From: an uncultured Lachnospiraceae bacterium
GTDB taxonomy: Bacteria; Bacillota; Clostridia; Lachnospirales; Lachnospiraceae
Direction of reading: 5' to 3'
DNA length: 64,000 nt
NCBI GenBank assembly: GCA_946405625.1
Contig: CAMJHQ010000012.1
Span: 1 to 64,000, forward strand
Part shown: positions 7,745 through 28,096 of the stretch, piece after piece
Numbering within the stretch: the stretch's first letter is position 1
Layout of the letters: each line of letters opens with the position of its first letter
Notes under the pieces: generated by a model
Told to the model about the DNA's origin: nothing
Seen by the model: only the letters and a program-made list of their open reading frames with translations
Databases searched by the model: none
Made by a program: the position numbers and the translations under genes

Positions 7745-8950
7745 ATGGCGATCGGTATTGCCTCAAAAGTAAATAAAGTATATAAGGCGGCAAGGAAAAA
7801 TGCAGCCAGCGTATATAGGTTTCATATGTTGAGACACGTATATCCGAAGCTGTATCACGATAATGCCATGAAGCCGATAGATAAGAAGAAAGCAGTTTTT
7901 ATCGAAGTAAGAGAAGAAACTCTCAGTAGTAATTTCAAGGGCATTTATGATATTCTGGTTGAGCGGGGCTATAAGGTTTCGGTACATTTCCTTCATATGA
8001 GCTTTGTGAAAAGGTCTGAGTATGTGAAGAATTGTAAGGAAATGATAAAAGATATAGCAGATGCGGCATATGTTTTTCTCGATGAGGCATCGGACGTTTT
8101 TGCTGCGCTTCCGATCAGGAGAAAAACGGTTGTAACGCAGCTCTGGCATGCCTGCGGTGCATTTAAAAAATTCGGAATGAGTATAGCGGACAAGAAGTTC
8201 GGAGGGGATAGGAAAACCCTTGAAAAATATCCGTTTCACGGCAATTATACCTACATGACAGTCAGTTCACCCGAGGTTGTTTGGGCATATGAAGAGGCTA
8301 TGGGAATTAAGGACAGAAATGTAATTAAGCCCGTCGGAGTACCGAGAACCGATTATTTTTATGACAAGAAGGCCGCCGAAGAGGCATATAGACATCTGTA
8401 TGAAAGCTTTCCTGAAGCAAGGGGGAAGAAGGTGCTGTTATATGCGCCGACCTTCAGAGGTCATGTAAATACGGCATCTACACCGGAAGAGCTGAATGTC
8501 GAGAGGTTCAGGAATGAGCTTAAGGATAAGTATGTGATGATTTTCAAGCTGCATCCTTTTGTGAAGACCAGAACGGAGATTCCGGAGGAATGCAGGGATT
8601 TCGCAAGGGATTTAACGGATGGTTTCAGTATAGAGGAACTGCTTCTTGTATCGGATGTATGCATTTCCGATTACTCGTCGCTTATTTTCGAGTATTCGAT
8701 TCTGGAGCGGCCGATGCTGTTTTATGCATATGATCTGGGCAGTTATATAGACTGGAGGGGATTCTACTATCCGTATGAGGAATTTGTCCCGGGACGTATC
8801 TGCAGGACTGAAGAGGAACTGATCCTCGGAGTAAAGGAACTGGAGACGTCGTTTGATGGTGAAAAGGTTAAAAAATTCAAGGAAAAATACATGAGTTCAT
8901 GTGACGGAAAAGCCACTGAAAGAGTAATTAAGATGATATTGGGGGAGTAA
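7745..8950 (+). CDS. CDP-glycerol:glycerophosphate glycerophosphotransferase family protein (2)
   Basis: This 401-residue paralogue of the preceding gene keeps the same blocks: VVTQLWHACGAFKKFGM, TVSSPEVVWAYEEAMG, KPVGVPRTDYFYD, LYAPTFRGH, FKLHPF, DVCISDYSSLIFEY, and a shared ending SSCDGKATERVI. The pair probably acts in sequence, one priming and one extending, or adds units to the same glycerol-phosphate polymer, but this is inferred from adjacency only. AGAGG lies shortly before the ATG. An intrinsic terminator overlaps the stop codon. No CDP-glycerol synthase or exporter gene is in the window. Confidence 0.85.
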   Translation: MAIGIASKVNKVYKAARKNAASVYRFHMLRHVYPKLYHDNAMKPIDKKKAVFIEVREETLSSNFKGIYDILVERGYKVSVHFLHMSFVKRSEYVKNCKEMIKDIADAAYVFLDEASDVFAALPIRRKTVVTQLWHACGAFKKFGMSIADKKFGGDRKTLEKYPFHGNYTYMTVSSPEVVWAYEEAMGIKDRNVIKPVGVPRTDYFYDKKAAEEAYRHLYESFPEARGKKVLLYAPTFRGHVNTASTPEELNVERFRNELKDKYVMIFKLHPFVKTRTEIPEECRDFARDLTDGFSIEELLLVSDVCISDYSSLIFEYSILERPMLFYAYDLGSYIDWRGFYYPYEEFVPGRICRTEEELILGVKELETSFDGEKVKKFKEKYMSSCDGKATERVIKMILGE

Positions 8951-8979
8951 ATATGAATTATTTATGACTCCCCCTTTTT
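8941..8979 (+). terminator. Intrinsic terminator overlapping a stop codon
   Basis: GGGGGAGT (8941-8948) pairs with ACTCCCCC (8967-8974), followed by TTTTT. The 5' arm includes the last codons and the first base of the stop of the upstream gene. Confidence 0.9.
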
Positions 8980-9089
8980 ATTTGTTTATTCCTTGAAAAT
9001 CAAGCATGGAAATGGTAGTATATAATAGTTAAATTATCATTAGGCGTATTATGCCCTGATGAAGAAAAAAGGTAATAGAGGTAGACATC

Positions 9090-10223
9090 TTGGATAAGCT
9101 AATTAAGTTTGTAAAAGCCCTGATCGTAGTGGTCGCGGCGCTGATTTTGGCAATGATAGTAAAGGATTACTATAACAAGTACAAGGAGGCTTTCAACGAA
9201 GAGTATGCAGGTACATATACTCGTGAAGGCACTGAGGTTATAGTAAACATTCCGGAGGGAGCCGGAGTTAAGGAAGTTGCGAATATCCTGTATAAGAAAG
9301 GACTTATAAAGTATAAGAAAGCCTTCATCAACAGATATCAGGAATCCGATTATTCCGGAAAACTCAAAGCCGGAACCTACACACTGAATACGGGAATGAA
9401 TACTCTCAAAATGATTGAGATCATGTGTCCCGTTATTGATGAATCGAACATAGTGGTGAAACTGGTCGTTCCCGAGGGCTTTACGGTTGATATGATCGCA
9501 GCCCGATGCGAGGAAGAAGGAATATGCACAAAGCAGGAATTCCTGAGCGCGGTTAATTCGGTAACAAAGGCTGATTTCGAATACCTTAACGATATTCCGG
9601 AAGGTGCACCGGTAAGATATAAACTTGAAGGTTATCTCTTCCCGGCTACTTATGATATCTACAAGGATACAACAGCTGAGCAGATAGTCGGAATGATGCT
9701 TCAGGCATTCAGAAATTACTATTCTGAGGATATGAGAGCTAGAGCCGAAGAACTCGGACTTAACTCATTTGAAGTTCTGACAAGAGCATCGATGGTTGAA
9801 CGTGAGGCTAAGATTGAAAGCGAGCGTCCGATAATCGCAGGAGTTATCAATAATCGTCTCGATGAGGATATGCTTCTGCAGGTTGACCCGACAGCTCTTT
9901 ATCCTGTAACGGAAGGTATGTATGACAAGGAAGTTGTCACATATGATGATATAGAGGTTGATTCTCCTTATAATACGTATAAGTATAAGGGTCTTCCTTG
10001 TGGACCGATCTGTAATCCGGGTCTTTCATGTATCAATGCCGTTTTGGAGCCGGAAGAGCATGATTATCTTTACTATCATGTAGAGGATGAGAGCACCGGA
10101 AAGCATGTATTCTCTGAAACATACGAAGAGCATGAGGATACAATGAAACCTGAGGGGTCAGATGATGACGGCGATGATGACGGCGACGATGACGACTCAG
10201 ATGATGATTATGAAGATTATTAA
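9090..10223 (+). CDS. mltG: Endolytic transglycosylase MltG
   Basis: A 377-residue membrane-anchored murein lyase. One N-terminal helix (about 7-24) is followed by a LysM-like part (about 45-115, with IPEGAGVKEVANILYKKGLI) and the YceG/MltG catalytic domain. Key blocks are LEGYLFPATYDI, ASMVEREAK with the catalytic Glu, INNRL, LQVDPTALYP, and the substrate loop around SPYNTYKYKGLPCGPICNPG. MltG cuts nascent glycan strands and helps set their length. The start is TTG, with AGAGGT 6 bases upstream. The tail is odd: about 20 residues, nearly all Asp, which is not part of the family domain. Confidence 0.92.
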   Translation: MDKLIKFVKALIVVVAALILAMIVKDYYNKYKEAFNEEYAGTYTREGTEVIVNIPEGAGVKEVANILYKKGLIKYKKAFINRYQESDYSGKLKAGTYTLNTGMNTLKMIEIMCPVIDESNIVVKLVVPEGFTVDMIAARCEEEGICTKQEFLSAVNSVTKADFEYLNDIPEGAPVRYKLEGYLFPATYDIYKDTTAEQIVGMMLQAFRNYYSEDMRARAEELGLNSFEVLTRASMVEREAKIESERPIIAGVINNRLDEDMLLQVDPTALYPVTEGMYDKEVVTYDDIEVDSPYNTYKYKGLPCGPICNPGLSCINAVLEPEEHDYLYYHVEDESTGKHVFSETYEEHEDTMKPEGSDDDGDDDGDDDDSDDDYEDY

Positions 10224-10282
10224 AAATAATGGCATAAGCTGTTTAAATAAATTCCGCTAAAAATTGCGAGGAGGGTGTACTG

Positions 10283-11704
10283 ATGAGAGGTTTTAGATTT
10301 ACAGCAAAAAATATAGGAGATGAAAGATATCTCACTTATATCATGGGTGAAGGCTGTGAACTGGACGAAGATGCACTTGATATTTGTGAGGATGGCGTCA
10401 GTGGTCTGGTAGGTATTATTTACGAAGAGGATGATGATTACGATTATCTGACGTATGACATCACCGGAAAGACGGCACTTGATAACTATACAAAGGGTAC
10501 GGTAGACAAGAAAACAGTATTTACACTTGTCAGAAATGTAGCAAAAGGAATTATTGAATTTAAAGAGGTTGGTATCCCTCTTTCATATATTCTTCTCAAC
10601 AGAAACTTTATGTATGTCAATCCCGATACTTTAGAGATTGAGTATATCTGTCTTCCTGTTGAAAGCGAAGGAAGCGTTGCTGCTGAGTTTAAGGGTTTCA
10701 TGAGACAGTTTATTGCTAATCTCATGTACAATGTCGATGAAGATCTGAACTATGTAGGACAGCTTATTACCTACATAAACGGAGATTCGTTTAATCTCAG
10801 AGGCCTGGTAGGCCTTGTCGAGGCACTCATGAAGGATGCCGGAATCGATTATGAGGCTGAGGGAGATATAGCAACAGCTGATGGAGATGTTGTTGTCAGC
10901 ACAGATGTTCTTACTTCAGATCAGGGAGTAAGCTCTTACATGGACGAGCTTGAGGATGCTGATGGTGATCTTCCGGAAATCGGTGATGATGAAGAGGAAG
11001 AAGAAGATATAGAAGTTTCGGAAGCAGAGGAAGAAGACGCTGAAGAAGAGACTGAAGAAGCTCAGGAGGAAACAGAGGAGACTGAAGCAGAAGCTGAGGA
11101 AGAGACTGTTGAAGAGGAAGAGGAAGAAGACGATGATGATGGCCCTGAAACAGTAACAATAGCTGATATCAGAGCAGCACAGAAGAGTGTTAAGGTCAAC
11201 AGAGTAGCACTTATCCAGAACAACGCACACGGCGAGGAAGAGAAGCAGGCAGAAGAAGAGAACAAAGCAAAGAAGAAGGATAACTCAAAGGGCAAGAAGA
11301 AGGAGAAGGCAGAAGCTAAGCCTGAAGCACCTACAGCACCTGAACCACAGGAAGTTGACGCAGCAGCAGTTGCGGCAGCAGAAGTATCGGAGACAGCCGA
11401 TATAAAGATCAATCCTTATATCGTAAGAGAAACAACAAATGAAAGAGCTATGATCAACAAGCCGATATTTAAGCTTGGTAAGGCTACAAGAGGTATTGAT
11501 TACAGAATTGACGGAAATAATGCGATCAGCAGAATACATGCGATCATCACATTAAAGGAAAACAACCAGTATTACATCAAGGACAATAAGTCAACAAATC
11601 ACACATATGTCAATAATGTAAAGGTTGAGCCTGATCAGGAAGTGCTGCTTACTAACAACTGCACGATCACACTCGGAGACGAAGATTTTCTTTTCAAGTT
11701 TTAA
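10283..11704 (+). CDS. FHA domain protein with N-terminal DUF6382-type domain
   Basis: This 473-residue cytosolic protein has three parts. An N-terminal globular domain (about 1-195) resembles DUF6382, with IPLSYILLNRNFMYVNPDTL. A very acidic low-complexity linker (about 230-295) runs into an Ala/Lys/Pro-rich stretch. The C-terminal FHA domain (about 385-473) has AISRIHAIIT and STNHTYVNN, the phosphothreonine-binding loops; the usual NGT is NHT here. FHA domains bind phospho-Thr peptides. It is the first gene of a cluster with a second FHA protein, a PP2C phosphatase and a Ser/Thr kinase, and carries one STDVL motif (Thr207) like those in the 18101 protein. GAGGAGG precedes the ATG. Confidence 0.85.
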   Translation: MRGFRFTAKNIGDERYLTYIMGEGCELDEDALDICEDGVSGLVGIIYEEDDDYDYLTYDITGKTALDNYTKGTVDKKTVFTLVRNVAKGIIEFKEVGIPLSYILLNRNFMYVNPDTLEIEYICLPVESEGSVAAEFKGFMRQFIANLMYNVDEDLNYVGQLITYINGDSFNLRGLVGLVEALMKDAGIDYEAEGDIATADGDVVVSTDVLTSDQGVSSYMDELEDADGDLPEIGDDEEEEEDIEVSEAEEEDAEEETEEAQEETEETEAEAEEETVEEEEEEDDDDGPETVTIADIRAAQKSVKVNRVALIQNNAHGEEEKQAEEENKAKKKDNSKGKKKEKAEAKPEAPTAPEPQEVDAAAVAAAEVSETADIKINPYIVRETTNERAMINKPIFKLGKATRGIDYRIDGNNAISRIHAIITLKENNQYYIKDNKSTNHTYVNNVKVEPDQEVLLTNNCTITLGDEDFLFKF

Positions 11705-11739
11705 GACACTCAAATTGTTACTAAAATTGTAGGGGGTAG

Positions 11740-15180
<3,441 letters not shown>

Positions 15181-15193
15181 TAAGGAGACAGAG

Positions 15194-15967
15194 ATGGAAT
15201 TTTCCGCGACCTACAATACGGATATAGGTATTAAGAAATTTACCAATCAGGATTCACTTGCCATCAGAATTATCGATTCTCCGAAAGGTCAGGTGGCTTT
15301 CGGAATAGTCTGCGATGGCATGGGTGGTCTTGCCAAGGGCGAACTTGCAAGCAAAGAAGTAATAAATGCATTTACAAAATGGTTTGACGAAACATTTGTT
15401 TCGGAAATATTGGACGATACATTTTCTCCGGACAGCCTGCGAAAAGAATGGAATTCAATAATCCAGAACGAAAACAGACTGCTCGGAATGTATGGTTCGG
15501 ATAACAACATTATGCTGGGAACTACGGTATCAGCAATACTTATGTATGAGGACAGCTTCTTCATTGCACATGTAGGAGACAGTCGCGTGTATGAGTTAAA
15601 GGAAGACTCGCTCAGAATACTTACAAAGGATCAGACCTTTGTTGCCAGAGAAATTGCGGCAGGACGTATGACGCCGGAAGAGGCAAAGACAGATCCGAGA
15701 AGAAGTGTACTTCTTCAATGTGTAGGTGCATCGGCAGAAGTTAGGCCGGATTTCCTTAAGGGCAGACTTCAACAGAATGCAATTTATCTCATATGCTCCG
15801 ATGGATTCAGACATCAGATTTCCGAGCAGGAGATTATGGATAAGCTGGGTCCTCAGGCTATAAAATCAGATGAGGATATGAAATACGGGTGTGTATATCT
15901 GACAGAAATGGTCAAGAATCGAAAAGAGGCAGATAATATTACTGTAGCGGTTATAAGAACTATATAA
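15194..15967 (+). CDS. PP2C family Ser/Thr protein phosphatase
   Basis: A 257-residue cytosolic PPM/PP2C phosphatase. Metal-binding and catalytic motifs appear in order: an N-terminal ATYNTDIGIKKFTNQDSLAI region (R/K-x-x-N-Q-D type), VCDGMGGLAKGE with Asp41, IAHVGDSRVYEL around 125-136, LTKDQTFVA, ICSDGFRHQI, and a C-terminal KEADNITVAVIR with the last Asp-Asn pair. It removes phosphate from Thr/Ser and is expected to oppose the kinase encoded next. The frame is open further upstream into the FHA gene, but AAGGAG lies 8 bases before the ATG at 15194. The kinase gene starts 36 bp after its stop. Confidence 0.92.
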   Translation: MEFSATYNTDIGIKKFTNQDSLAIRIIDSPKGQVAFGIVCDGMGGLAKGELASKEVINAFTKWFDETFVSEILDDTFSPDSLRKEWNSIIQNENRLLGMYGSDNNIMLGTTVSAILMYEDSFFIAHVGDSRVYELKEDSLRILTKDQTFVAREIAAGRMTPEEAKTDPRRSVLLQCVGASAEVRPDFLKGRLQQNAIYLICSDGFRHQISEQEIMDKLGPQAIKSDEDMKYGCVYLTEMVKNRKEADNITVAVIRTI

Positions 15968-16003
15968 TTGTATTTTGTATTGGGATGTATAGAGGGATAG
16001 AAA

Positions 16004-18094
16004 ATGCTTAGAGAAGGAACCGTTCTTGACGGAAAGTATGAAGTCCTTAAGAAGATCGGCGAAGGCGGTATGTCCACCGTTTATCTCGGCCGTAATAACC
16101 GACTTAATATGCAGCTCGCAGTTAAGGAGATTAAAAACGACGGCTCTAAATCTACCGAGATTCTGCTAAAAGGATTGGAGAGAGAAGCAAATATACTTAA
16201 GGATGTAGATCATCCTGTTATACCGCGTATTATTGATATTGTTAAGTATGGCGGAACTGTATGCGTTATCATGGACTTCATCGAAGGTGTTAACCTTGCG
16301 GATAAGCTGAAGGCTGAGGGCGCATTGCCACAGGAAGACGTAATCGAATGGTCTCTTGAGCTGGCATCGGCTCTTGATTACCTGCATTCGATGAATCCGC
16401 CTATCATTTATCGTGATATGAAACCGTCAAATGTCATGCTTCGTCCGGAGGGTGGAGTTAAGCTTATCGACTTTGGTACGGCTAAAACATATGATATAGA
16501 GAATAACGCGGATACAACAGCTCTCGGAACCAGGGGTTATGCGGCTCCGGAGCAGTTTGGTGATGCTCAGGGTAAAGGAATCTATAAGACAGATGCACGT
16601 ACGGATATCTATAATCTCGGTGCGACCATGTATCATATGGTAACGGGTAAGAATCCGCAGGAGCCGCCATATAAGATTCTCCCTATAAGAGAAGTCAATG
16701 CAGGACTTTCAACAGGACTTGAGCAGATAATCATGAAATGTACTCAGCCAAATCCGGCTGACAGATATCAGTCTTGTGCAGAGCTCATATATGCTCTTGA
16801 GCATTATACAGAGCTTGATGAATCATATGTAAAGAGCAATAAGAAAAAGGTTTCAAAGTTCTTTACCACAGCGGCGCTTACTCTGATTTTTGCGGGCGTT
16901 GCCATTGGCGGAAGAATGGGAATGAGAAAGGTTCAGATGCAGAACTACTCAACCTATATTGAAGCCGGAAATGATTACAAGGCTGACGGTAATTTCCAGA
17001 AAGCGGCGGCAAGCTATCGAGAGGCATTCGAGCTTGACGGACGTGAAGCGGATGCATATGTAAAATATATCGATCTCTATATTGATGCCGCAAATGATGT
17101 CAATGATGAGGGAGAAGGAAAGCTCCAGCTTAAAGACGGACTTGACGTTGTTGCAAACAGAGTAAAGAACGGTTATGCCGGAGTTAACAAGAACAGTGAG
17201 GTTCTTTATCGACTCGGACTTGCTTACTTTACCGAAGAGAAAGAGTACGATCTGGCAGCTAAGTACTTCAATATGATCGATGATAAGGATGAGGATTACG
17301 GAGAGCTTGCAAATTATTACGGAAGCATTTCCAGAATCCTTTCAAACACAAACGTTACGCCGAAGGAGCTTCTGGAAAGCGTTAACGGATTTGCACAGTA
17401 TAATATGAACAGACTCAGCAACACGAGTCGACAGAAGTTCGAAAACTATGATACGGTCGGACAGGTTTATGTAACATATCTGCTTCGTGAGCCGGGTGTT
17501 GCTGAAGAGGCAGAGAAGTTTATGAGTCAGGCTGTAGTGGATCTCGGCGAGTATACGGGCGAAGATTCAGCTATGTTTGACTATAAATACAGTGACTATC
17601 TGTCTGAGATATATTATCAGCTTGCAAAGGAAACCGGATCGACGGAGGATTATAACCTTTCAATAAATTATTGTAAAGAGGTTATAAATCTTATCATCGG
17701 AGAGATCGACGTTTCTAAACCGACAAGCAACGAAAAAGGAATGGCTTATATTAAGTCATATGTAAATAAGAGCTGTAGGATTGCAGAGATATACTCGACG
17801 CTCGGAGATACCGAAAATGCAGTAAAAACATATGAAGAAACCGAGAAGAAGCTCGGAGCCAAGAACGAAAATGCCACAAAGGTTTATGTGGAGCATCTGA
17901 ATATGCTTTATACAACCTACGAGAAGGCCGAACAGGATCCGCTCAAGTGGTCACAGGCGCAGAAGGACAGCATTATCAAGGTATATAAAGAGGGAAGCGA
18001 TATTCCGGGTATAACCAACAATCCGACATGGATTAAGAGAACACCGACGGTGGAGGTTATCAGCAGCCCCGTAGCAAAGAAGGAAGGAGAGTGA
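16004..18094 (+). CDS. Membrane Ser/Thr protein kinase with extracytoplasmic TPR-like region
   Basis: This 696-residue protein has a Hanks-type kinase domain (about 10-265): Gly loop KIGEGGMSTVYLG (17-29), ATP Lys41, catalytic YRDMKPSN with Asp138, and DFG at 156-158. One transmembrane helix lies at about 286-306, followed by about 385 residues of helical repeats with TPR-like spacing (for example AGNDYKADGNFQKAAASYREA). PrkC/PknB kinases of Firmicutes usually carry PASTA domains there, and none is visible here. The outer part may sense peptides or proteins rather than muropeptides. It lies between the PP2C gene and a T-x-x-L motif protein, its likely antagonist and substrate. Confidence 0.92.
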   Translation: MLREGTVLDGKYEVLKKIGEGGMSTVYLGRNNRLNMQLAVKEIKNDGSKSTEILLKGLEREANILKDVDHPVIPRIIDIVKYGGTVCVIMDFIEGVNLADKLKAEGALPQEDVIEWSLELASALDYLHSMNPPIIYRDMKPSNVMLRPEGGVKLIDFGTAKTYDIENNADTTALGTRGYAAPEQFGDAQGKGIYKTDARTDIYNLGATMYHMVTGKNPQEPPYKILPIREVNAGLSTGLEQIIMKCTQPNPADRYQSCAELIYALEHYTELDESYVKSNKKKVSKFFTTAALTLIFAGVAIGGRMGMRKVQMQNYSTYIEAGNDYKADGNFQKAAASYREAFELDGREADAYVKYIDLYIDAANDVNDEGEGKLQLKDGLDVVANRVKNGYAGVNKNSEVLYRLGLAYFTEEKEYDLAAKYFNMIDDKDEDYGELANYYGSISRILSNTNVTPKELLESVNGFAQYNMNRLSNTSRQKFENYDTVGQVYVTYLLREPGVAEEAEKFMSQAVVDLGEYTGEDSAMFDYKYSDYLSEIYYQLAKETGSTEDYNLSINYCKEVINLIIGEIDVSKPTSNEKGMAYIKSYVNKSCRIAEIYSTLGDTENAVKTYEETEKKLGAKNENATKVYVEHLNMLYTTYEKAEQDPLKWSQAQKDSIIKVYKEGSDIPGITNNPTWIKRTPTVEVISSPVAKKEGE

Positions 18095-18100
18095 TAGCAG

Positions 18101-19444
18101 ATGAGCATTTACAATATAATGTTTACAGGCGGTCTCATTTTCGCCATACTTTTCTTCATACTTACAGTAGTTCTGTTCTTTTTATATAATATTCCGCAAG
18201 CTCTCGGTTCTGTTACCGGACAAACGGAAAAGAAGGCTCTTGAGGCAATCAGATCCGGCAAGAACGGAGGAGTTTCCAGTAGAAGAAGGAGAAAATCTCA
18301 GGGCAGGATCGTCGCCAGAGATATTAAGACATCTACTTCAACGGGTTCTCTTATTTCAGGAGATACAGATGTTCAGAAATCCGGTTCCGGAAAGGTTACA
18401 AAGGATACCGGAAGAATGAAGAAGGGTACAGGAAATATCAAGATGACATCCGGAGGTCTGAGGCAGGGATCAGGAAATATCAAACAGGAATCCGGCGGTC
18501 TCATGCAAGGATCAGGAAATATCAAACAGGAATCCGGAGACCTTATGCAGAATTCCGGAAATATCAAGAATACAGATAATGAAGCCAGAGAGGCTAAGGA
18601 AGCAGCAGCTGCTGCTGCAGCCGAAATGGCTGCAAAGGAAGAGGCTGCAAGAGAGCAGGCAATAGCCGAAGAAAAGGGCGACAAGAAGGATAAGACAGTA
18701 ATCCGTATCAATCCTAAAACAGGAAAGAGATATGAGCTCGATGAAGAGGATACGGAAGTTCTCACATACGGAGATATGCAGAAGGATTCAGAGGCACCTA
18801 CAACCTTCCTTGGTGCGAAGATGCCGGGAGATGATGAAGCTACCGATCTTCTGAGAGATGATATAAGCGAAAGCGATCTATATGATGATGATCTCTTATC
18901 AGATGAGGAAACATCGTCAGCTATCCTCGAAGCAGGTATGGCAATGGATTTTGATAAGGAAGATACCGATCTTCTTACAGCTACTGCTGCTGTATTGGAA
19001 GGGGAAGAAGTTTATGATGACGCTGCTGATAATATCAGTGAAGCAGATACAGATCTTCTTCTGCCGGACGGAACAACAGCACCAAAGCCGGTTGAAGAAG
19101 GCGAAAGGAAGAGACCTCCGAAGAGCATTACGGATATGCTCAGGAAGGCTATGGAGGAAGGAAAGAATATTCCTGACGTTGAGCTTGATGAAGATGACTA
19201 TGATGATGAGGACGAGGAATATACATATTCCGTATCCGAAGAGATAACAAGTGTGCTTAAGGCAGAAGCTGCCGCTCAGGAAGCACTTACACAGGAAGAT
19301 GTAAACGGAATTCTTGATGAAAATCTTACTTCTGTACTTCGTGCAGGAATGATGCCGGGTGCTGAAGAAGAAATGCCTATGGATGACAACAGGATTGAAG
19401 TAATTTACGCAAAGACCATAGTTCACACAGAAGAGACACTCTAA
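18101..19444 (+). CDS. Single-pass membrane protein with repeated T-x-x-L motifs (putative phospho-scaffold)
   Basis: This 447-residue protein is not a family I recognise. An N-terminal transmembrane helix (about 8-30) is followed by an Arg/Lys patch (60-70), GSGNIKQESGGLMQ-type repeats (about 95-157), an Ala/Glu helix (162-190), and a long acidic tail. The tail repeats Thr-[Asp/Glu/Ser]-[Val/Leu/Met]-Leu: Thr218, 248, 289, 317, 344, 383 and 410, plus looser copies at 235 and 271. FHA domains select phospho-Thr largely by the +3 residue, and Leu at +3 is an accepted class. Encoded 6 bases after the kinase gene, it is a plausible multi-site kinase substrate and FHA docking platform. That role is inference. 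AAGGAGAG precedes the ATG. Confidence 0.75.
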   Translation: MSIYNIMFTGGLIFAILFFILTVVLFFLYNIPQALGSVTGQTEKKALEAIRSGKNGGVSSRRRRKSQGRIVARDIKTSTSTGSLISGDTDVQKSGSGKVTKDTGRMKKGTGNIKMTSGGLRQGSGNIKQESGGLMQGSGNIKQESGDLMQNSGNIKNTDNEAREAKEAAAAAAAEMAAKEEAAREQAIAEEKGDKKDKTVIRINPKTGKRYELDEEDTEVLTYGDMQKDSEAPTTFLGAKMPGDDEATDLLRDDISESDLYDDDLLSDEETSSAILEAGMAMDFDKEDTDLLTATAAVLEGEEVYDDAADNISEADTDLLLPDGTTAPKPVEEGERKRPPKSITDMLRKAMEEGKNIPDVELDEDDYDDEDEEYTYSVSEEITSVLKAEAAAQEALTQEDVNGILDENLTSVLRAGMMPGAEEEMPMDDNRIEVIYAKTIVHTEETL

Positions 19445-19470
19445 AGTGGTAAACGAGGGAGGACTTGTTA

Positions 19471-22400
19471 ATGAGAACAAGTAAAAATACGAAGAATTAC
19501 AAAAAAAGGATAGCCACTTCCACGCATGCCGGTATGGCAAGCGGAGTGTCAAAATTCAGACACTCTTACAGAAGTATGAAGCGGATGATATCCTTTTCCC
19601 TGGCGCTAATATTAGTTCTGGGTCTCGTTTATGTGGGCGGAATGATGAGTAAGGTAAAAGCAGCAGACGGAACGCTGTCTTTTGCAGATGGAACATGGGC
19701 TGAAGATACAGAGACATCAGCTGTAACGGATAATGATTTTATGAATACACTTTCAGACAGGACAGCCGATACAACGATAGTTGTTCCTGTAACGAATCTG
19801 GTACTTGGAACTGCAGATAAACATGTACTGAATTCGGATAGTTATGAGTGTGCATTCTGGTCGAAAGATGCTCTTCTGGAAGGATGGGCTCCGACTATCG
19901 ATGCTTCAACAGGTGATGTAAGTGATTATGTAGTAGCTGCGATAAGTTCAATTGACTGCGCAACAGATGATGCAGTATATCTTCACAAGTTCAATATTTC
20001 AAAGAATGGTGAATCACAGTGGGTACTTGATGCTTCTTCGGTAAGCAGTGTTAAGTTTACCATACAGTGCACAGCTCCATCGGCACCTACAGTAAGCAAG
20101 GCTGACTTCGTTTATTCGATATCGGATGTTGCAGATAGTGAAAATACAGTATATTACGGTTCTTTCGGTTACTCGGTAAAGAGTACATCAGCAACATCAT
20201 TAACAGCATTTGACAGATCCGAATCAGCAACTGATACAGCAGCAACAGCTGCAGCAACACTCAGCGCTGACGGAAATGACAAAGATGGAACATATTTAAT
20301 AACAAAGAAGATTACAACCACAGATTCTTCGAAAACATTTATCTATGGTTGGTCAGGTCTTTATACAAGAGATGATAATATAGGTGATTGCAGTTTCAAG
20401 CTGCTTGACTCCGAAGAAGTCGAGTCTGTCGGACCGTTTGATCCTACAAAAGAGGTTAAGCTGGTTGCGACCGGAAATTCGACAGAGACTATAAATGTTA
20501 AGATTACGATCAGTGATGATCAGGGCTCCAAGGAAGGAACACTTGATTCATCTACTACGGAAATCAGTACGGCAATGCCGTCGGGAGTTGATACTGTAAA
20601 TTCCCGTTCAGGAAAGTCTTTTGAAGCTACTGCGGTTTTTTCAGCAGAAGGTAAGAAGGACATAACAATAACAAAAACAATCAGTTATGAAGATGTAATA
20701 CCGACTGTTACGATCACCGGAGTTGACGGTGCTGTTGACGTAGACGGAACCCAGTATGTAAATGGTACCAGCGTTGCTCTCAGAGTTGATTTCGCAGCAG
20801 GCGGATCGGGAACTTCAGCCAGGATTTCGTCTGATAAGATTTCGGTAACATCTGCGGCTACATATTCAGAAAGTGATTCTGATTCTTTTACAAATGTGGC
20901 TTCAAATTCTAACACGAAGGTGGTAATCAAGGATTTCCCTGCAGATGATACGTTTACAGTTCTTGTAAATATTACAAATGACAAGGGAATAAAGGCACCT
21001 ACTGATGCAACAGCAGTGTTGAAGGTTGATAATACCGCACCTGAGCTTACAGTAAAGAGCGTTTCACAGGCAGGAAATACATATACACCTGCTGCAGGAA
21101 ATTCCGATATTACTGTACCGGATACTTATAAATTTACTTCCGCAAAGGATGTTGAAATAGTATTTCATTTAAGTGACGGAGAGAACGGAAGCGGATTAAA
21201 GTCCAAGACCGCAAAGTGGGGTTCTACGGAATATACACTTGAGGATATCGGAAGTGGAGATTATAAGATCACTATCCCTGCAGATCCATCAAACAAAGGT
21301 GCTGCACCGAGTATAGATCTTGCAGCGGAAGATAATGTCGGTTTAACAACCGCAGTTAAGGTAAATTATCAATATGTTCATGATGATATAACCATATCCG
21401 GCGGAGATATTTCATCAAATGGCGGAACGTCTTATGATAAGGACGGAAATGCAACAACTCTGGATGATAATTTCTATGACGGAAAAGTTAAGATAGTTTA
21501 TACGGTTGATTCGGATATTGAACTTAATGCAGCTTCGGCTAAATTAACAGCTACCAAGGGAGGAGAGACAGGTCCGCTTACTACAAAGACAGGTCCTGAG
21601 ATTGCTTCTGCGGGAGAGAATAAGTATACGGTTACATATACTTTAGAAGAGGCTGCGACGGTCAAGTACGATAATATCGATTTTGTTATCTCCAATACCA
21701 ACGGATATGCATCACCTAAGTATACTATTACAATACTGAAGGTCGATCTTACGAATCCGTATGCGGGAATAAGTATCGATACAGATACTACAAAGACGGT
21801 TCAGAATAAAGATGCAGATGCCGGATGGTATAAGACTCTTTGGCTTTTAATAAAATACAGTGATACAGATTCTTCCGGAGTTGAGTCGGGTATTGCAAGT
21901 GTAACGGTTACAAATGTTGAAGGCGTTACTTCAAAGAATATTACATTAAATTCGTCAGGAGTAACAGGCGTTCAGGTTAATAAGTCTACTGATACAAGTG
22001 GAACACCGGTTAAGGTGACTGCAGTAGATAATATAGGAAACAAGTTTGAATCCGAAAAAACTTTTATGGTGGATCCGGAGTTTTCCGGTGATGTTAAGCT
22101 TAAAGTTACAACTGACGGAACAGAGGTATCGGGAAGCGGAAACAAATATAAGGGTGAGCCAAAGATAAATATAACCGCAGTTGATGATATTGAGGTTAAG
22201 GATATAACAGTTAAAGTTGAACAGAATGGAACTGCTGTAGCGGATTATCATTTATCAGATACAAGCTTTGGAACGAAGTCAGTTGATAAAACAGTTGATC
22301 TTTCGGCTGTTCTCACTGCTGCGGGAAAGACGCTTGATGACGGTTCATATACCATTAATTCCACAGCTATGGATATAGCCGGAAATAGGAAGGCAGCTAC

Positions 22401-25400
22401 ACCGGAGGTTAAATTTGTTCTTGATAATCTGCCTCCGAGCTTTGGAAATGCAGTAATTACACAGATAGATAAGAAAAGTGATACTCATTCCGAGACAAAG
22501 GATATTTCCGATAATAATACAGAGCAGGTAAGCTTTGATAATTCGGTTTCAAGAAAGTCAGAAGTATCATTTGCCATTAGCGGAGTTGCAGATGCAGCTT
22601 TCAATCCGTCTGCCGGAGAAGGAAGCATATCGATAACGGCTCCTGACGGAAGTGCAGTTACAGGATATACTTATGATAAGGCTGCAGGCAACCTTAGCTT
22701 TACAGTTGACCCTGCTTCTTATACGGCAGGAGAGGGAACTTTTACGATCACTCTTACAGATGCTGCAGGAAATGCGAATACACGTAAGCTTAAAGTTAAA
22801 TTCCTTGAGGATAAACTGACAGTAACTTATGCGGTTACAGGCTTTGATGAGATTGCAGAGGGAGAATATCAGGGTAAGAACAGCAGCACGGATATAAAGT
22901 TTACTATTGAATCCGATTCTCCTGTTAAACCTGAAGATATTGCAGTAAAAGTCGGAGGCGCGGCTGTTACTTTTGATGTTTCAAAGTTTACGGCAGTAAC
23001 TGAGGCTGACGGAAATTATAAATATACTTATGTACAGAGTGTCAGTGGAACTGATACAAAGATAAATGATACCAGTTTCGAAGCGACAAATATTTTCGGA
23101 ATATCTGATTCAAAGGAAATAACAATAATCGGTTTCGATCTTTCGAATCCTGATATCAAAGAAGATGTTTCACCTGAATCAGAGGGAAAAGGTACAGTAG
23201 AAGGTACAGCAAAAGATATTACCGATTGGTATCAGAACCTTGTCCTTTATGTTACGTATGATGATACAAAGGATGGTGCGCTTAGCTGGGATTCGGGAAT
23301 AAAGAAGATATCCGTAACAGGTGCAACCCCGATGTTTGATTCGGGAACATATTCAGATCTTGCAGCTTATATTTCAGCAAATCCGCATAAAGGCAGTTTC
23401 TATGTTGATGTAAAAGAGTCAAGTGTTGCTGCAGCAGAGTTTGGTGATGGTGCCATATATCCTACGGAAGTCAGATTCGAGATTGAAGATAATGTCGGTC
23501 ATAAGAAGAGTATCATGAATACCTATAAGGTTGATAAGGAAGATCCGACATCTCAATTGAAGGTAAATGAAATTAAGTGGGCCGATGCTACCGAGGAGAA
23601 TACAACATTTGGAAACGGAACTAAGGATATTCAGATTACTTATGATGTAACGGATAATATTCGAGCACATATGTCATTAACGGTTACAAGATCTGATGAT
23701 CCGGAAAAGATTATAGGAAAGTATTATCCGGATAATAAGACTTTCCACAGAGCTTCTAAAGATCTTTCATATCTGCTTGGATCAGACGTGCAGGATGGTG
23801 AGTATACCATCAGTCTTGGTGCATACGATATGTCAGGAAGAACGACTGATCCGTATATCAAAAAAATGATGGTAAGATTTGATAATACACTGCCTGATAT
23901 AAAAGATATTACGGTTGCACAGTACGGTAATACCGCGATTAAAAAAGTAGGAAATGATTATTATCAGCTTACCGCAAGTGAAACGAGCCCAAGTCATGGA
24001 GCATTTACAATCAGTTTTGATGCTGATGATCCAAAGGTGAACTCCTATGCATCGGGTCTTGCAGGTGCCAACAGTATTATAGTTAACGAAACTATTGATG
24101 GTGAGACTAAGACTGTTGCCAATATGGTAAACAGCGGAAATAAGCATGTTGATATTTTTACAGACAGCACATATGCCGGAAAGCAGGTAACTTATAATAT
24201 TGTTGTTAAAGATGCAGCCGGTAATTCAACAAGCGAGACATTTACCGTTTCCTTTATTAAGGATGAGATTTCAATAAAGCATCGTACTGTTTCACAGGAT
24301 CAGAAGACAGGTACTTTTGATATTGTATATGATATCGTATCAGATGCACCTATCACACCGAATGAGGATGCTTCAAATCTCAATGATGGCAATATTACTT
24401 TAACGATGGATACTGTTGATGGTGCCAAGGATAAGAGTAATGCCGGAACCGGAGTGCTCAAGAAGGCAGACACATATGATGCCTCAAAAGCGGTATATAA
24501 TTATACATATACCTATTCGATAAATAAGTCGCAGTCTGATAAGCTTGAGAATATCAGTGTCAGCGTTAAGAATAACAATAATGTTGTATCTGATGTGGAT
24601 TCAATAGATTTTATCAACATCGATCTTTTTGATCCACAGATCGCAGCAAGCGGCCTTCCGGGTGATGCAGAGACAAAATGGCATAAGAATCTGAAAATAT
24701 CTCTCGACTATACAGAGGGTGACAGAGAATATATGTCAGGTGTTGCGAGCATCATGGTAAGCGGAGTTAAGCAGGCGGTTGCAGGAAACACCTACAGATT
24801 GACATTTGGTGATGATGAAAGAGAACTGAACGGAACATTATTTGCCGATGTTAATGAGTCTACGGGACTCGGAGGAACGCCGGTAGACGTAGTTATCGAA
24901 GATAAATTCGGAAGATCGACTACGATGCATTATACATTCCATGTTGATGAGACTGATCCGGAAGCTGCATTTACGGTTAACGGAATCGATTGGGATGATG
25001 TAGATGGTGCATATCTCGGAGGAGAACCTGCAAATCCTACAGTTTCATATTCGGCTAAGGATAATATCCAGCTTCAGAATTATGCACTGACTATTACGCT
25101 TCCTTCGGGAGCGAAGGTAACTCCTGTATCGGGAACAAATACCAACAATATCGGAAATGATACGACACTTGCAGATCTTATAGGAGCAGCAAACTGTGTA
25201 AACGGTGTTCCTAGAGACGGTGAGTATACGATCGTACTTTCGGTTACAGACCTTGCAGGAAGAACCACTGCCGATGATGTAGAGGCTACATTTACGGTTG
25301 ATAATACATCACCGAGAAATGATCTCATTATTACATCGGAGAGACCTGCCAAGTTTGATAAGTATAATAGTTCATATTCGAATTCTTATACAGGCACATC

Positions 25401-27135
25401 TTATGATTACGGTCAGTACTATGCTAATGATGTATATTTCGATGCGGTTGTTATAGATAGTAATGTAGATGAGTTTACTGTTTCTGATAATGGATACGTA
25501 ATCTATTCGGGAAGCAGTGAAGGAACTTATAACCTCGGTGTTTCATCAGAGGGAGAACATAATATAGTTATTTCGACAGTTGATAAGACCGGACTCAGAG
25601 CAGAATCTCAGTCAATAAGCTTCACTATTGATAAGAGTGCACCGGATGTTTCGACCGCACTTAACGGATCTGGATTCCTGGATGAATCGGGACTTAGGTA
25701 TCTCAATACAAGCGGTGATGTTTCGGTATCGGTAAGTGATGCGAATGTTGATGAAGACGATCTTACGATGACAGTCATCACAACTCCTCCTAATTCGGGT
25801 TCAAGCACAAGTGAGACGAAGGTTCAGCCCGGTACACAGAGCTTTGCACAGGATGCGGAATATACTGTGAGATTTATAGCTGTCGACAGAGCCGGTAATA
25901 GGAGTGCTGAAAGATCAGTATCCTTCCGAGTTGATAAAACTCCGCCTGAACTCAGATTTACAGGTGCGGCAGATAAGGGAACAGCAACAAGCAGCGTAAC
26001 AGTTAATTATATTGTTAACGAGGCATTCTACAGCGACATGAACGGATGTACGCTGAGAGTTTACAGAAAGATTGACGGACAGGGCGAAAGCCTTCTCAAG
26101 ACTGTTGAGATCAGACCGACAGGACCACAGTATTCACTCAGTGAACTGTTCCAGGAGGATGGAGAATACAGATTTGAGATGTCTGCTGAGGATAAGTGCG
26201 GTAATAAGTCACAGGCTTCATACACATTTATTCTTGATGGCAAGGCTCCGATAATCACGCTTACAGGTGTAGGCAATTATGATAAGACAGTTGAGGATGT
26301 AATTCTCGGAATTACTGTTGACGAGACATTCTTCACATCAAACAAGGTTGTTCTTTCAGGAACAAGAATCGATATAGATGGAAAGAAGAATAAGGTAGAA
26401 TTCGACGGATTCAATCCGAATACCAGCAAGGTTACAACTTTCGAGCAGGTATTTAAGGAAGACGGAATCTATGATATCTCAATCGAATCAACAGATAAGG
26501 CCGGAAACAAGACAACAAGAAAGCTGCATTTCACGATCGACAGAACGGATCCTGAGATTATCGGAATCGATGACTATGACGGAAAGGCAGTAAAGAGCTT
26601 CAACTGGAATGTCGATATGGACAGTTTGGTTAAAGACCTTACTGTATGTAACACATATGTTTACATGGACGGTGTTGAATACGACGGAACAACAACGCTT
26701 AAGGACGGAACACATCTTCTGAGAGTTGTATCAACGGATGAGCTTGGACACACGACTGAAAAGGAAGTTTCCTTCAGACTTGATACAACAGCACCGAATA
26801 TCCTCGTCATGGGTGTTGAGGAAGGCCAGTATATCAATGTTCCGACGGATGTACAGGTCGGAGTTGAGCTTGATGACGATAAGCTTACCAAGGTAACTCT
26901 TAACGGAGTGGAGGTTCCGATAAAAGATGGTGTTGCTACTGTAAGAGTTGATAAGAGAATGTCATATACACTTCTTGCTGAAGCAGTAGATGATGCAGGA
27001 AATGTATCCAAGATCGAGCTTCACTTTAACTTCGGAGAGAAGTTCCCATGGTGGATCTTTATAGCCGGAGCAGGCGGACTGGGATTGATATTCCTGGTTG
27101 TAGCTATATCAAGAAAAAAGCAGAATGAAAAATAA
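19471..27135 (+). CDS. Giant Ig-like repeat surface protein
   Basis: This 2554-residue protein has an N-terminal basic stretch and a signal-type hydrophobic helix (about 43-65), ending in VKAADG, a likely cleavage area. A very long extracellular region of bacterial Ig-like domains follows. At least 15 domain boundaries carry a V/I/L/F-D-x-x-x-P signature such as VDNTAPE, IDRTDPEI or LDTTAPNI. The later ones fall about 300 bp apart. The C-terminus has a transmembrane helix after FPWW and a short basic tail, so it is membrane-anchored without an LPxTG motif. GGAGGA lies 8 bases before the ATG at 19471. It is the last gene of the kinase/FHA cluster. Adhesion or envelope-spanning roles are guesses. 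Confidence 0.85.
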   Translation: MRTSKNTKNYKKRIATSTHAGMASGVSKFRHSYRSMKRMISFSLALILVLGLVYVGGMMSKVKAADGTLSFADGTWAEDTETSAVTDNDFMNTLSDRTADTTIVVPVTNLVLGTADKHVLNSDSYECAFWSKDALLEGWAPTIDASTGDVSDYVVAAISSIDCATDDAVYLHKFNISKNGESQWVLDASSVSSVKFTIQCTAPSAPTVSKADFVYSISDVADSENTVYYGSFGYSVKSTSATSLTAFDRSESATDTAATAAATLSADGNDKDGTYLITKKITTTDSSKTFIYGWSGLYTRDDNIGDCSFKLLDSEEVESVGPFDPTKEVKLVATGNSTETINVKITISDDQGSKEGTLDSSTTEISTAMPSGVDTVNSRSGKSFEATAVFSAEGKKDITITKTISYEDVIPTVTITGVDGAVDVDGTQYVNGTSVALRVDFAAGGSGTSARISSDKISVTSAATYSESDSDSFTNVASNSNTKVVIKDFPADDTFTVLVNITNDKGIKAPTDATAVLKVDNTAPELTVKSVSQAGNTYTPAAGNSDITVPDTYKFTSAKDVEIVFHLSDGENGSGLKSKTAKWGSTEYTLEDIGSGDYKITIPADPSNKGAAPSIDLAAEDNVGLTTAVKVNYQYVHDDITISGGDISSNGGTSYDKDGNATTLDDNFYDGKVKIVYTVDSDIELNAASAKLTATKGGETGPLTTKTGPEIASAGENKYTVTYTLEEAATVKYDNIDFVISNTNGYASPKYTITILKVDLTNPYAGISIDTDTTKTVQNKDADAGWYKTLWLLIKYSDTDSSGVESGIASVTVTNVEGVTSKNITLNSSGVTGVQVNKSTDTSGTPVKVTAVDNIGNKFESEKTFMVDPEFSGDVKLKVTTDGTEVSGSGNKYKGEPKINITAVDDIEVKDITVKVEQNGTAVADYHLSDTSFGTKSVDKTVDLSAVLTAAGKTLDDGSYTINSTAMDIAGNRKAATPEVKFVLDNLPPSFGNAVITQIDKKSDTHSETKDISDNNTEQVSFDNSVSRKSEVSFAISGVADAAFNPSAGEGSISITAPDGSAVTGYTYDKAAGNLSFTVDPASYTAGEGTFTITLTDAAGNANTRKLKVKFLEDKLTVTYAVTGFDEIAEGEYQGKNSSTDIKFTIESDSPVKPEDIAVKVGGAAVTFDVSKFTAVTEADGNYKYTYVQSVSGTDTKINDTSFEATNIFGISDSKEITIIGFDLSNPDIKEDVSPESEGKGTVEGTAKDITDWYQNLVLYVTYDDTKDGALSWDSGIKKISVTGATPMFDSGTYSDLAAYISANPHKGSFYVDVKESSVAAAEFGDGAIYPTEVRFEIEDNVGHKKSIMNTYKVDKEDPTSQLKVNEIKWADATEENTTFGNGTKDIQITYDVTDNIRAHMSLTVTRSDDPEKIIGKYYPDNKTFHRASKDLSYLLGSDVQDGEYTISLGAYDMSGRTTDPYIKKMMVRFDNTLPDIKDITVAQYGNTAIKKVGNDYYQLTASETSPSHGAFTISFDADDPKVNSYASGLAGANSIIVNETIDGETKTVANMVNSGNKHVDIFTDSTYAGKQVTYNIVVKDAAGNSTSETFTVSFIKDEISIKHRTVSQDQKTGTFDIVYDIVSDAPITPNEDASNLNDGNITLTMDTVDGAKDKSNAGTGVLKKADTYDASKAVYNYTYTYSINKSQSDKLENISVSVKNNNNVVSDVDSIDFINIDLFDPQIAASGLPGDAETKWHKNLKISLDYTEGDREYMSGVASIMVSGVKQAVAGNTYRLTFGDDERELNGTLFADVNESTGLGGTPVDVVIEDKFGRSTTMHYTFHVDETDPEAAFTVNGIDWDDVDGAYLGGEPANPTVSYSAKDNIQLQNYALTITLPSGAKVTPVSGTNTNNIGNDTTLADLIGAANCVNGVPRDGEYTIVLSVTDLAGRTTADDVEATFTVDNTSPRNDLIITSERPAKFDKYNSSYSNSYTGTSYDYGQYYANDVYFDAVVIDSNVDEFTVSDNGYVIYSGSSEGTYNLGVSSEGEHNIVISTVDKTGLRAESQSISFTIDKSAPDVSTALNGSGFLDESGLRYLNTSGDVSVSVSDANVDEDDLTMTVITTPPNSGSSTSETKVQPGTQSFAQDAEYTVRFIAVDRAGNRSAERSVSFRVDKTPPELRFTGAADKGTATSSVTVNYIVNEAFYSDMNGCTLRVYRKIDGQGESLLKTVEIRPTGPQYSLSELFQEDGEYRFEMSAEDKCGNKSQASYTFILDGKAPIITLTGVGNYDKTVEDVILGITVDETFFTSNKVVLSGTRIDIDGKKNKVEFDGFNPNTSKVTTFEQVFKEDGIYDISIESTDKAGNKTTRKLHFTIDRTDPEIIGIDDYDGKAVKSFNWNVDMDSLVKDLTVCNTYVYMDGVEYDGTTTLKDGTHLLRVVSTDELGHTTEKEVSFRLDTTAPNILVMGVEEGQYINVPTDVQVGVELDDDKLTKVTLNGVEVPIKDGVATVRVDKRMSYTLLAEAVDDAGNVSKIELHFNFGEKFPWWIFIAGAGGLGLIFLVVAISRKKQNEK

Positions 27136-27153
27136 TTTGTATTTTTAAAACAG

Positions 27154-27186
27154 AGTGCCGCCGGATTATATTTCGGCGGCACTTTA
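27154..27186 (+). terminator. Stem-loop after the giant surface-protein gene
   Basis: AGTGCCGCCG (27154-27163) pairs perfectly with CGGCGGCACT (27174-27183), followed by a short T-run. It lies 18 bp after the stop and probably ends the 10283-27135 transcript. Confidence 0.7.
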
Positions 27187-27244
27187 CTGTTCACAGCAAA
27201 TATTTAATGTATTCAACCCGCTGTTCTTTTGGAGCTGCGGTCAT

Positions 27245-27312
27245 GAATGCATATTAATCATTAAGATTGTATAATAATCATTACGAATGTGTATTAATCC
27301 ATATGAATGATG
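27245..27312 (+). repeat. 20-bp direct-repeat array upstream of the zinc-ribbon gene
   Basis: Three full units and a partial one follow head to tail with a 20-bp period: 27245-27263, 27264-27283, 27284-27303 and 27304-27312. They share a GAATG-x(2)-TATTAATCATTA-like pattern. A further copy lies at 27953-27973, downstream of the gene and upstream of secDF. They could be binding sites for a regulator. No known motif is recognised. Confidence 0.6.
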
Positions 27313-27373
27313 TAAGTTACAGAGAAAGATGATATCATTCGGATAGATTTTGTCATAAAGGGAGAAATTCAAT

Positions 27374-27916
27374 ATGTATGTAAATAAGACAAAGGCAATG
27401 GTAGCTCTTGGTTCGATCAAGGTGAAAACCATTATATGGGGAATTGTGGGCGGAATGTTCCTGATGTCATTTGTAGGAAGTTTTTTGCCTGAGATGAAAG
27501 AAAAGTATGGTATAGGTCCGGTAACATATTCAGCACTTGCATTTGTTGCGATATGCGGATTATTCATTTATCTGAATCTTCAGAAGCGAAAGAAGATCAA
27601 TCTTGCTTACAGGCTCAGCAACGTATTCGAGAATGATTCGGACGCTACAATGATGACTAATGAGATTGCAAACGCGGTTCATCTTTCGACACCGGCACTT
27701 GAGCAGAATCTTCTGTGGCTGATAAACAATAACTATATTATCAATTGCAGATTTGATGACAAGAATCAGTCAAGAATTATTCTTACAGATGTTAATGAAG
27801 CCGCAACAAATGAATTCGCTATTATAACATGTCAGGCCTGTGGTTCGAAGATTCAGGTCAGACCGGGTCAGTCCGCAAAATGTCCGTCATGCGGTACATT
27901 TATTGCTGCATCATAA
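27374..27916 (+). CDS. Two-TM membrane protein with C-terminal zinc ribbon
   Basis: This 180-residue protein of unrecognised family has two transmembrane helices (about 18-37 and 48-67). A cytosolic part of about 80 residues follows, in which NEIANAVHLSTPALEQNLLWL has the look of a winged-helix segment. It ends in a four-Cys zinc ribbon (CQACG, then CPSCG, about 156-176). A membrane-bound DNA- or RNA-contacting regulator would fit, but nothing proves it. GGGAGA precedes the ATG. It stands alone between the surface-protein gene and secDF, and 20-bp repeats lie on both sides. Confidence 0.7.
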   Translation: MYVNKTKAMVALGSIKVKTIIWGIVGGMFLMSFVGSFLPEMKEKYGIGPVTYSALAFVAICGLFIYLNLQKRKKINLAYRLSNVFENDSDATMMTNEIANAVHLSTPALEQNLLWLINNNYIINCRFDDKNQSRIILTDVNEAATNEFAIITCQACGSKIQVRPGQSAKCPSCGTFIAAS

Positions 27917-27952
27917 GAGAGATGATTGAATAGAATTAAAAACATATATTAA

Positions 27953-27973
27953 CGAATGTTATAATAATCATCC
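27953..27973 (+). repeat. Isolated copy of the 20-bp repeat upstream of secDF
   Basis: CGAATGTTATAATAATCATCC matches the units at 27245-27312 and lies about 20 bp upstream of the secDF promoter elements. Confidence 0.5.
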
Positions 27974-27990
27974 GTAAATATAAAAAATGC

Positions 27991-28019
27991 TTTAAAAAGG
28001 GGCGCTGCTATGCTATAAT
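27991..28019 (+). promoter_or_regulatory. secDF promoter
   Basis: TATAAT at 28014-28019 has a TATGC extension just upstream and a weak -35, TTTAAA (27991-27996), at a 17-bp spacer. The secDF start is about 75 bp downstream. Confidence 0.55.
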
Positions 28020-28096
28020 GTTCAAGTTATTGCTGGGAGTGTCCCTATTATTATGCACTAACAAAATAAGAAGTTTGATGGAAGAGGATTATTATC

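Follow-up and report, generated by a model that had tools for sequence, protein, structure and literature searches.

A candidate phosphothreonine array on a membrane-anchored protein encoded beside a kinase, a phosphatase and FHA proteins in an uncultured Lachnospiraceae bacterium

Described phospho-signalling systems and the window locus

In TQ cluster domains of the Rad53/Rad9 type, arrayed kinase sites recruit FHA domains, and in GarA/OdhI a phosphothreonine motif with a hydrophobic residue at position +3 serves as a switch on one soluble protein. We examined a 447-residue protein, called here the motif-array protein, which is encoded at 18101..19444 (+ strand, open reading frame translation) in a DNA stretch from an uncultured Lachnospiraceae bacterium. 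This stretch, referred to throughout as the window, comprises positions 1 to 64,000 of contig CAMJHQ010000012.1 (assembly GCA_946405625.1). Judged from its sequence, the motif-array protein most likely carries a real and strongly conserved phosphothreonine array for FHA readers. The FHA fold is common to GarA/OdhI and to the window's system, whereas the TQ cluster domains belong to a eukaryotic DNA-damage system and follow a TQ consensus. A literature search returned no report of the T-x-x-L array motif.

Rv1747 is an FHA protein with a phosphorylated disordered linker that can form condensates, according to the consulted part of a review (PMC9312465). As that part describes it, the Rv1747/PknF/PstP system resembles the proposed window system in its disordered linker, FHA domains, single kinase, single phosphatase and clustering at the membrane. 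However, FHA and linker lie within one ABC transporter in Rv1747, whereas bait and readers are separate proteins in the window. The threonine phosphorylation pathway of the type VI secretion system (PpkA, TagF-PppA, Fha, TssL) likewise has a Thr-phosphorylated membrane protein bound by an FHA protein, and for Agrobacterium Fha and the peptide pTVVEI the consulted part of the source gives a dissociation constant of 0.5-1.6 mM (PMC3953482). Because bacterial FHA-peptide contacts can be this weak, multivalency would be useful. That pathway differs in having a single site on TssL and no array, and its proteins are unrelated to those of the window.

The type VII secretion system (T7SS) variant T7SSe, as presented in the consulted part of PMC11217815, includes the DUF6382-FHA protein TseJ, the phosphatase TseF, the kinase TseD, TseH, TseK and the large TseI. 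In the same pages, TseK and TsdH (T7SSd) are each said to consist of one transmembrane helix and a short cytoplasmic stretch without structure, and Ig-like domains, a signal peptide and a C-terminal transmembrane segment are given for TsdI. The window operon also encodes a kinase, a PPM phosphatase, a DUF6382-FHA protein and a large exported-looking protein, and the motif-array protein combines a single transmembrane helix with an unstructured, presumably cytoplasmic part. It differs from TseH and TseK, as far as that account describes them, in its 447 residues with seven motif copies and in a genome without a WXG100 match; the consulted part of the paper makes no mention of such a motif. By position and published description the motif-array protein is a candidate TseH or TseK. 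The window operon resembles the kinase/phosphatase/FHA part of T7SSe, a likeness that goes beyond what the original prediction saw.

Conservation of the threonine and the +3 leucine

All seven exact T-[DES]-[VLM]-L copies listed by the original prediction are present on the + strand. In the first alignment, the threonine is retained at Thr218 (TEVL, 18752..18763) in 19/19 aligned rows, at Thr248 (TDLL, 18842..18853) in 15/16, at Thr383 (TSVL, 19247..19258) in 12/14 and at Thr410 (TSVL, in many relatives TAVLR; 19328..19339) in 18/19. Both the threonine and the +3 leucine are retained in 20/20 rows at Thr289 (TDLL, 18965..18976) and at Thr317 (TDLL, 19049..19060). The remaining copy, Thr344 (TDML, 19130..19141), is aligned in 4/20 rows only; its context is basic, and AlphaFold places it where a short helix begins (residues 343-353), in view of which its standing as a genuine copy appears doubtful. 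The two near copies that had been listed were also found: TTFL (Thr234, 18800..18811, +) fits T..L, and the degenerate SAIL (Ser273, 18917..18928, +) carries a serine where the nearest relative has threonine.

Homologues were sought in 61 genomes, the window genome included, 37 of them from the same genus. Relatives were present in 34 of the 61, among them 33 of the 37 same-genus genomes; the four same-genus genomes without a match have a completeness of 73-87%. A first scan of the genome contigs with the single motif-array protein as query found no relative. Thirty homologues were read as proteins, one of them (L003) cut by a contig end. In each of them T[DES][VLMI]L is present 2 to 8 times; their lengths are about 250 to 447 residues, with 9 to 64 residues between copies. 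Since both length and spacing vary, the array turns over while the motif persists.

Neighbouring proteins also have acidic, repetitive stretches, which would favour regarding the array as a functionless product of low-complexity coincidence or repeat slippage. Shuffled sequences, a serine control, a register control, codon diversity and conservation across families all contradict this explanation, and we consider its chance negligible. T[DES][VIL]L was observed 175 times in 34 homologues, one of which comes from another family and 33, with the window protein among them, from the genus, against a mean of 3.8 and a maximum of 11 in 100 shuffles. Corresponding values for the other proteins (observed; shuffled mean, maximum) were 1 (1.9, 6) for MltG, 0 (0.6, 3) for FHA protein 2 (FHA2), 0 (1.7, 6) for the phosphatase, 9 (15.2, 23) for the giant protein and 0 (3.6, 10) for SecDF. 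Slight excesses appeared in FHA protein 1 (FHA1; 7, against 2.5 and 6) and in the kinase (13, against 4.5 and 12), where 11 of the 13 occurrences are one site, kinase-domain residue 51, and two lie in the kinase from another family.

In the 33 same-genus homologues, T..L occurred 252 times versus 42.5 after shuffling, and S..L 47 times versus 43.5. Threonine filled the motif position in 172 of 182 cases and serine in none, with nearly equal background frequencies; widening the motif (+1 to DESAT, +2 to VILM) gave 210 threonines and one serine in 225. The register also stood out in this set, with 252 Thr-Leu pairs at distance 3 versus 16-69 at other distances, and serine had no peak. At the DNA level, 13-25 of 42 bases are identical between motif copies, four threonine codons are in use, and tandem repeats were detected only in a basic heptad array, not among the motif copies. 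With their low base identity and codon diversity the copies do not resemble products of recent duplication, a reading that we reject.

Aligned cells gave the same picture. In the first alignment the motif threonine was kept in 108/112 cells, never as serine, and the +3 leucine in 109/112, compared with 53/174 for other tail threonines (31 serines) and 46/152 for other leucines. In the second, the figures were 122/125 and 122/124 for motif threonine and +3 leucine, and 31/154 and 35/147 for the others. These counts are descriptive and lend the array that much less weight, as the homologues are related and MAFFT tends to align motifs, so that the cells are not independent. A pairwise comparison of the window protein with its nearest relative shows less contrast (motif Thr 7/7, other Thr 13/16), as expected at short distance. 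The +1 and +2 residues drift, and the threonine and +3 leucine are the strict positions; acidic-x-T-x-[VIL]-L may serve as a working consensus. Conservation of a threonine together with a +3 leucine is the pattern to be expected from a putative phosphothreonine-specific FHA reader. The original prediction's check on motif conservation is therefore borne out for the threonine, which is retained to the exclusion of serine, and fails for the spacing: conserved motif spacing is ruled out.

Relatives extend beyond the genus. A 21-member profile found them in 19 of the 295 order-level genomes searched, window genome included, and at class level in 7 of 291 at E 1e-4, three of these in new families. 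The wider set of 23 distinct sequences, which includes four candidate paralogues found in same-genus genomes, contained 99 T..L versus 21.8 in shuffles, with at least one in 21/23 and at least two in 20/23. Here 99 Thr-Leu pairs had distance 3 and a likewise high count of 69 had distance 2, which the many copies of the form TTxL probably explain. In other genera and families the consensus has shifted, to TELL, TTVL, TMVL or TGVL/TTQL depending on the lineage. Named relatives are Lachnospiraceae isolates and metagenome-assembled genomes, several of them from the rumen or other ruminant gut.

The motif-array protein itself had no match at E 0.01 in Pfam and NCBIfam searches. Its layout was assessed with an AlphaFold model built on a shallow alignment of 21 rows, and the predicted disordered acidic tail on a membrane anchor was recovered as a transmembrane helix followed by low predicted local distance difference test (pLDDT) values across the array, about 38-48 over most of it. 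The N-terminal transmembrane helix (residues 2-28, 18104..18184, +) is a conserved hydrophobic block with block pLDDT 88-97. Together with a juxtamembrane helix seen in model and alignment (IPxxxGxxTGxTxxKAxxxIR, residues 31-53, 18191..18259, +), it forms the most widely conserved block of the protein; an additional helix is modelled at residues 158-192. The basic heptad array [ST]-G-x-[ILM]-[KRM], the DNA-level tandem repeat mentioned above, precedes the acidic tail (18401..18567, +); it accepts serine besides threonine and is therefore not FHA-like. A similar Gly/Ser/Lys repeat was seen in L065, from another genus. The protein closes with an element that the alignment shows to be conserved (residues 432-447, 19394..19441, +), ending VHTEETL and recognisable in other families as IHTDEVI and similar.

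Gene neighbourhood, FHA proteins and proposed mechanism

The gene just upstream of the array gene encodes a Hanks-type Ser/Thr kinase (16004..18094, +) with TPR matches in its C-terminal part and a transmembrane segment near residue 290, judged by eye. A kinase gene adjoins the array gene in 33/33 regions of the first set, 30 of which also have the phosphatase gene; the remaining three are cut off at the kinase by a contig end. A second set of 17 regions came from 16 of 17 further order-level genomes (G154 twice, G098 left out) and contained the kinase in 17, the phosphatase in 15 and an FHA gene in 10. At class level the kinase adjoins in 3/3 regions, all with phosphatase and FHA, and the paralogue regions L148, L150, L151 and L152 have the kinase in all four and the phosphatase in three. 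Most of the wider loci are flanked by large exported-looking proteins, their ends judged by eye. Three further families of the class have the same cassette (L158, L159, L160); genes whose start looks TadE-like, again by eye, are present in L158 and L159 as well.

As the kinase is the tightest neighbour of the array gene, the array could be a substrate or docking site for the kinase without FHA readers, and its phosphorylation might, for instance, switch its charge, buffer phosphate or report how active the kinase is. The kinase activation loop reads T..[LI]G in 91/91 parsed loops (of 93 kinases), so that the array is similar to the site at which the kinase itself is probably phosphorylated; T..LG is common in activation loops of bacterial kinases, however, which makes this resemblance weak evidence. 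No FHA gene was seen within the fetched stretch in 7 of the 17 wider regions, which also favours this alternative. In contrast, the strict +3 leucine and the exclusion of serine point to a phosphothreonine reader and not to charge alone, and all 25 genomes searched have at least one FHA match. We consider a substrate array of this kind unlikely.

Both putative readers are encoded upstream on the + strand: FHA1 (10283..11704; DUF6382, acidic linker, FHA) and FHA2 (11743..15180; DUF6382-like, long Pro/Gln-rich linker, FHA). DUF6382 scored 40.6 bits in FHA1, over the cut-off of 26.7, and 23.6 bits, below it, in FHA2. The DUF6382 part of FHA1 (window 10283-10850) is predicted to adopt a compact protein-kinase-like fold, another point absent from the original prediction; Foldseek matches of the FHA1 model include the T7SS pseudokinase YukC/EssB, with TraF (8cba), neither a kinase nor an FHA domain, in the top row. 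The phosphopeptide-cleft residues Ser-Arg-x-His and Thr-Asn are present in 23/23 FHA1 rows and likewise in the window FHA2. A PDB sequence search gave no matches for the FHA domain of FHA1 and three for that of FHA2, Rv1747 among them. The motif copy that had been noted in the first FHA protein was located as STDVL (Thr207, 10901-10912). Unlike the GarA/OdhI motif, however, the corresponding T[DES][VIL]L is not a regular feature: of 20 sequences classed as FHA1 (one of which, L041, looks like an FHA2 piece), 7 have it, and at differing places, so we reject a general GarA-like self-binding switch in FHA1. The OdhI model scored 16.4 bits, under its cut-off of 200. Beside two homologues of the motif-array protein, in L092 (10462-12039) and L093 (5483-6970), the FHA protein has a trypsin-like peptidase domain ahead of its FHA domain.

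Several observations weigh against a phosphothreonine array read by FHA domains. The main doubt is that both window FHA domains have Gly-Lys where phosphothreonine-binding FHA domains usually have Gly-Arg; this arginine was mapped by motif onto R61 in DgcB and R30 in Agrobacterium Fha, and with lysine in its place the phosphate contact is not assured. The seven regions without a visible FHA gene count here too. The homologues of G202 (L100) and G310 (L091) lack any T..L, that of G313 has one, and three relatives at class level show no more than one or two good copies, judged by eye. G202 has one FHA match and G310 has nine, so the array and the number of FHA matches are not strictly coupled. 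In L057 (G019), FHA2 (8166-10661) has a degraded phosphothreonine site and the tail has the fewest exact copies of the genus set (2). L057 and G202 fit a joint loss of array and readers and G310 does not, which is a weak outcome.

The lysine substitution in both FHA domains also favours binding of the array independently of phosphorylation, for example by the kinase domain or by DUF6382, whose modelled fold is kinase-like. In the consulted part of PMC9600267, pseudokinase-FHA binding in T7SSb is proposed to be phosphorylation-independent, a precedent for such contacts. Serine should then be tolerated more than it is, with none in the 112 aligned cells, and kinase, phosphatase and FHA genes usually accompany the array. 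This alternative seems to us distinctly improbable.

We therefore favour, as the likely reading, a membrane-anchored multivalent phosphothreonine scaffold for the two neighbouring kinase-fold/FHA proteins. It rests on the array, the conservation of threonine and leucine, the gene neighbourhood, the distribution and the predicted folds, and from these we infer phosphorylation of the array, its binding by FHA domains and a role at the envelope or surface. The disordered acidic tail would present several [acidic]-x-Thr-x-[VIL]-Leu sites, whose threonines the upstream kinase would phosphorylate. The PP2C-type phosphatase (15149..15967, +) would strip the phosphates and, with the kinase, set the phosphate load of the tail. 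FHA domains of both DUF6382-FHA proteins would read phosphothreonine with a +3 leucine, and several copies of these proteins might thereby gather at the membrane. The phospho-scaffold put forward by the original prediction is partly supported, by the conserved threonine, the exclusion of serine and the constant kinase neighbour, mostly with phosphatase and FHA genes; the motif spacing is not conserved.

A condensate at the membrane, formed by the phosphorylated tail and the long FHA2 linker, would extend the scaffold and is compatible with it. The seven sites, the two FHA proteins and the pairing of kinase with phosphatase would suit such an assembly, as would the precedent of Rv1747 with PknF and PstP (PMC9312465, consulted part). 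However, FHA2 length varies widely within the genus and each reader has one recognised FHA domain. Condensate formation in this system is speculation, and we rate it as unlikely.

The genes are co-directional, in the order YceG/MltG-like, FHA1, FHA2, PP2C phosphatase, Ser/Thr kinase, motif-array protein and a 2556-residue protein. The YceG/MltG-like gene (9090-10223 in the window) has an acidic D-rich tail and lies ahead of the FHA genes in all 17 genus regions extending past FHA1. Promoter and terminator scans of 9000-28200 yielded nothing usable (12 terminators found versus 12.2 expected).

The proposed link to type VII secretion

Of the T7SSe features, the window contains a DUF6382-FHA protein and a PPM phosphatase with a membrane kinase (kinase transmembrane segment by eye). 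The 2556-residue protein (19465..27135, +) has a TsdI/TseI-like layout, with signal peptide and C-terminal transmembrane segment judged by eye; its only domain match, in NCBIfam and with Pfam not run on it, was of OmpL47 type. In L086 the protein encoded at this position matches Big_13 and further Ig-like domains. No WXG100 (PF06013) match was found in the window genome (97.8% complete) at E 0.001 or in G005 (one contig, 99% complete), and such matches occurred in 9 of 23 same-genus genomes searched, seven of them over the cut-off. None of the four FHA-matching open reading frames of the window genome (433, 485, 1146 and 316 residues) is EssC-sized; the FtsK family itself was not searched there.

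Elsewhere, homologues lie beside secretion genes. Two are accompanied by an FtsK-type ATPase and WXG100-type proteins (L099, and L093 with WXG100 just below the cut-off), and two by WXG100 proteins (L097, L101). L063, from another family (G039), has a 127-residue homologue with three exact copies (TDIL, TEVL, TDIL), two WXG100 matches and an EssC-sized FHA protein of 1550 residues, and by size, order and family matches it looks like a whole T7SSe-type locus. Both forms occur in G008: in addition to a window-type operon (L041) it has another locus, L148, which encodes a 186-residue homologue and an EssC-sized protein of 1538 residues containing a weak FHA match. The cassette thus seems to exist in T7SS-bound and T7SS-free forms.

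As part of the same overall explanation, it is probable that the window encodes a T7SSe signalling cassette, with two TseJ-like proteins and TseF-, TseD-, TseH/TseK- and TseI-like proteins. This cassette would sit beside a giant surface protein in a genome in which no WXG100 protein was detected. With TPR matches in its kinase and a giant surface protein next to it, the cassette may respond to an envelope or contact signal.

We see an even chance that the motif-array proteins form a hitherto undescribed family of dedicated membrane phospho-baits with members in several families of one class. Their drifting pTxxL arrays would then supply the link that is missing between kinase and FHA readers, both in T7SSe and in a variant free of T7SS that is built around a giant surface protein. 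If so, a T7SS component so far described as a transmembrane helix with a short tail would gain a function and a mechanism, and there would be a bacterial case of bait, writer, eraser and readers encoded side by side. It would also suggest that a genome can carry the kinase/phosphatase/FHA part of T7SSe while lacking the secretion machine.
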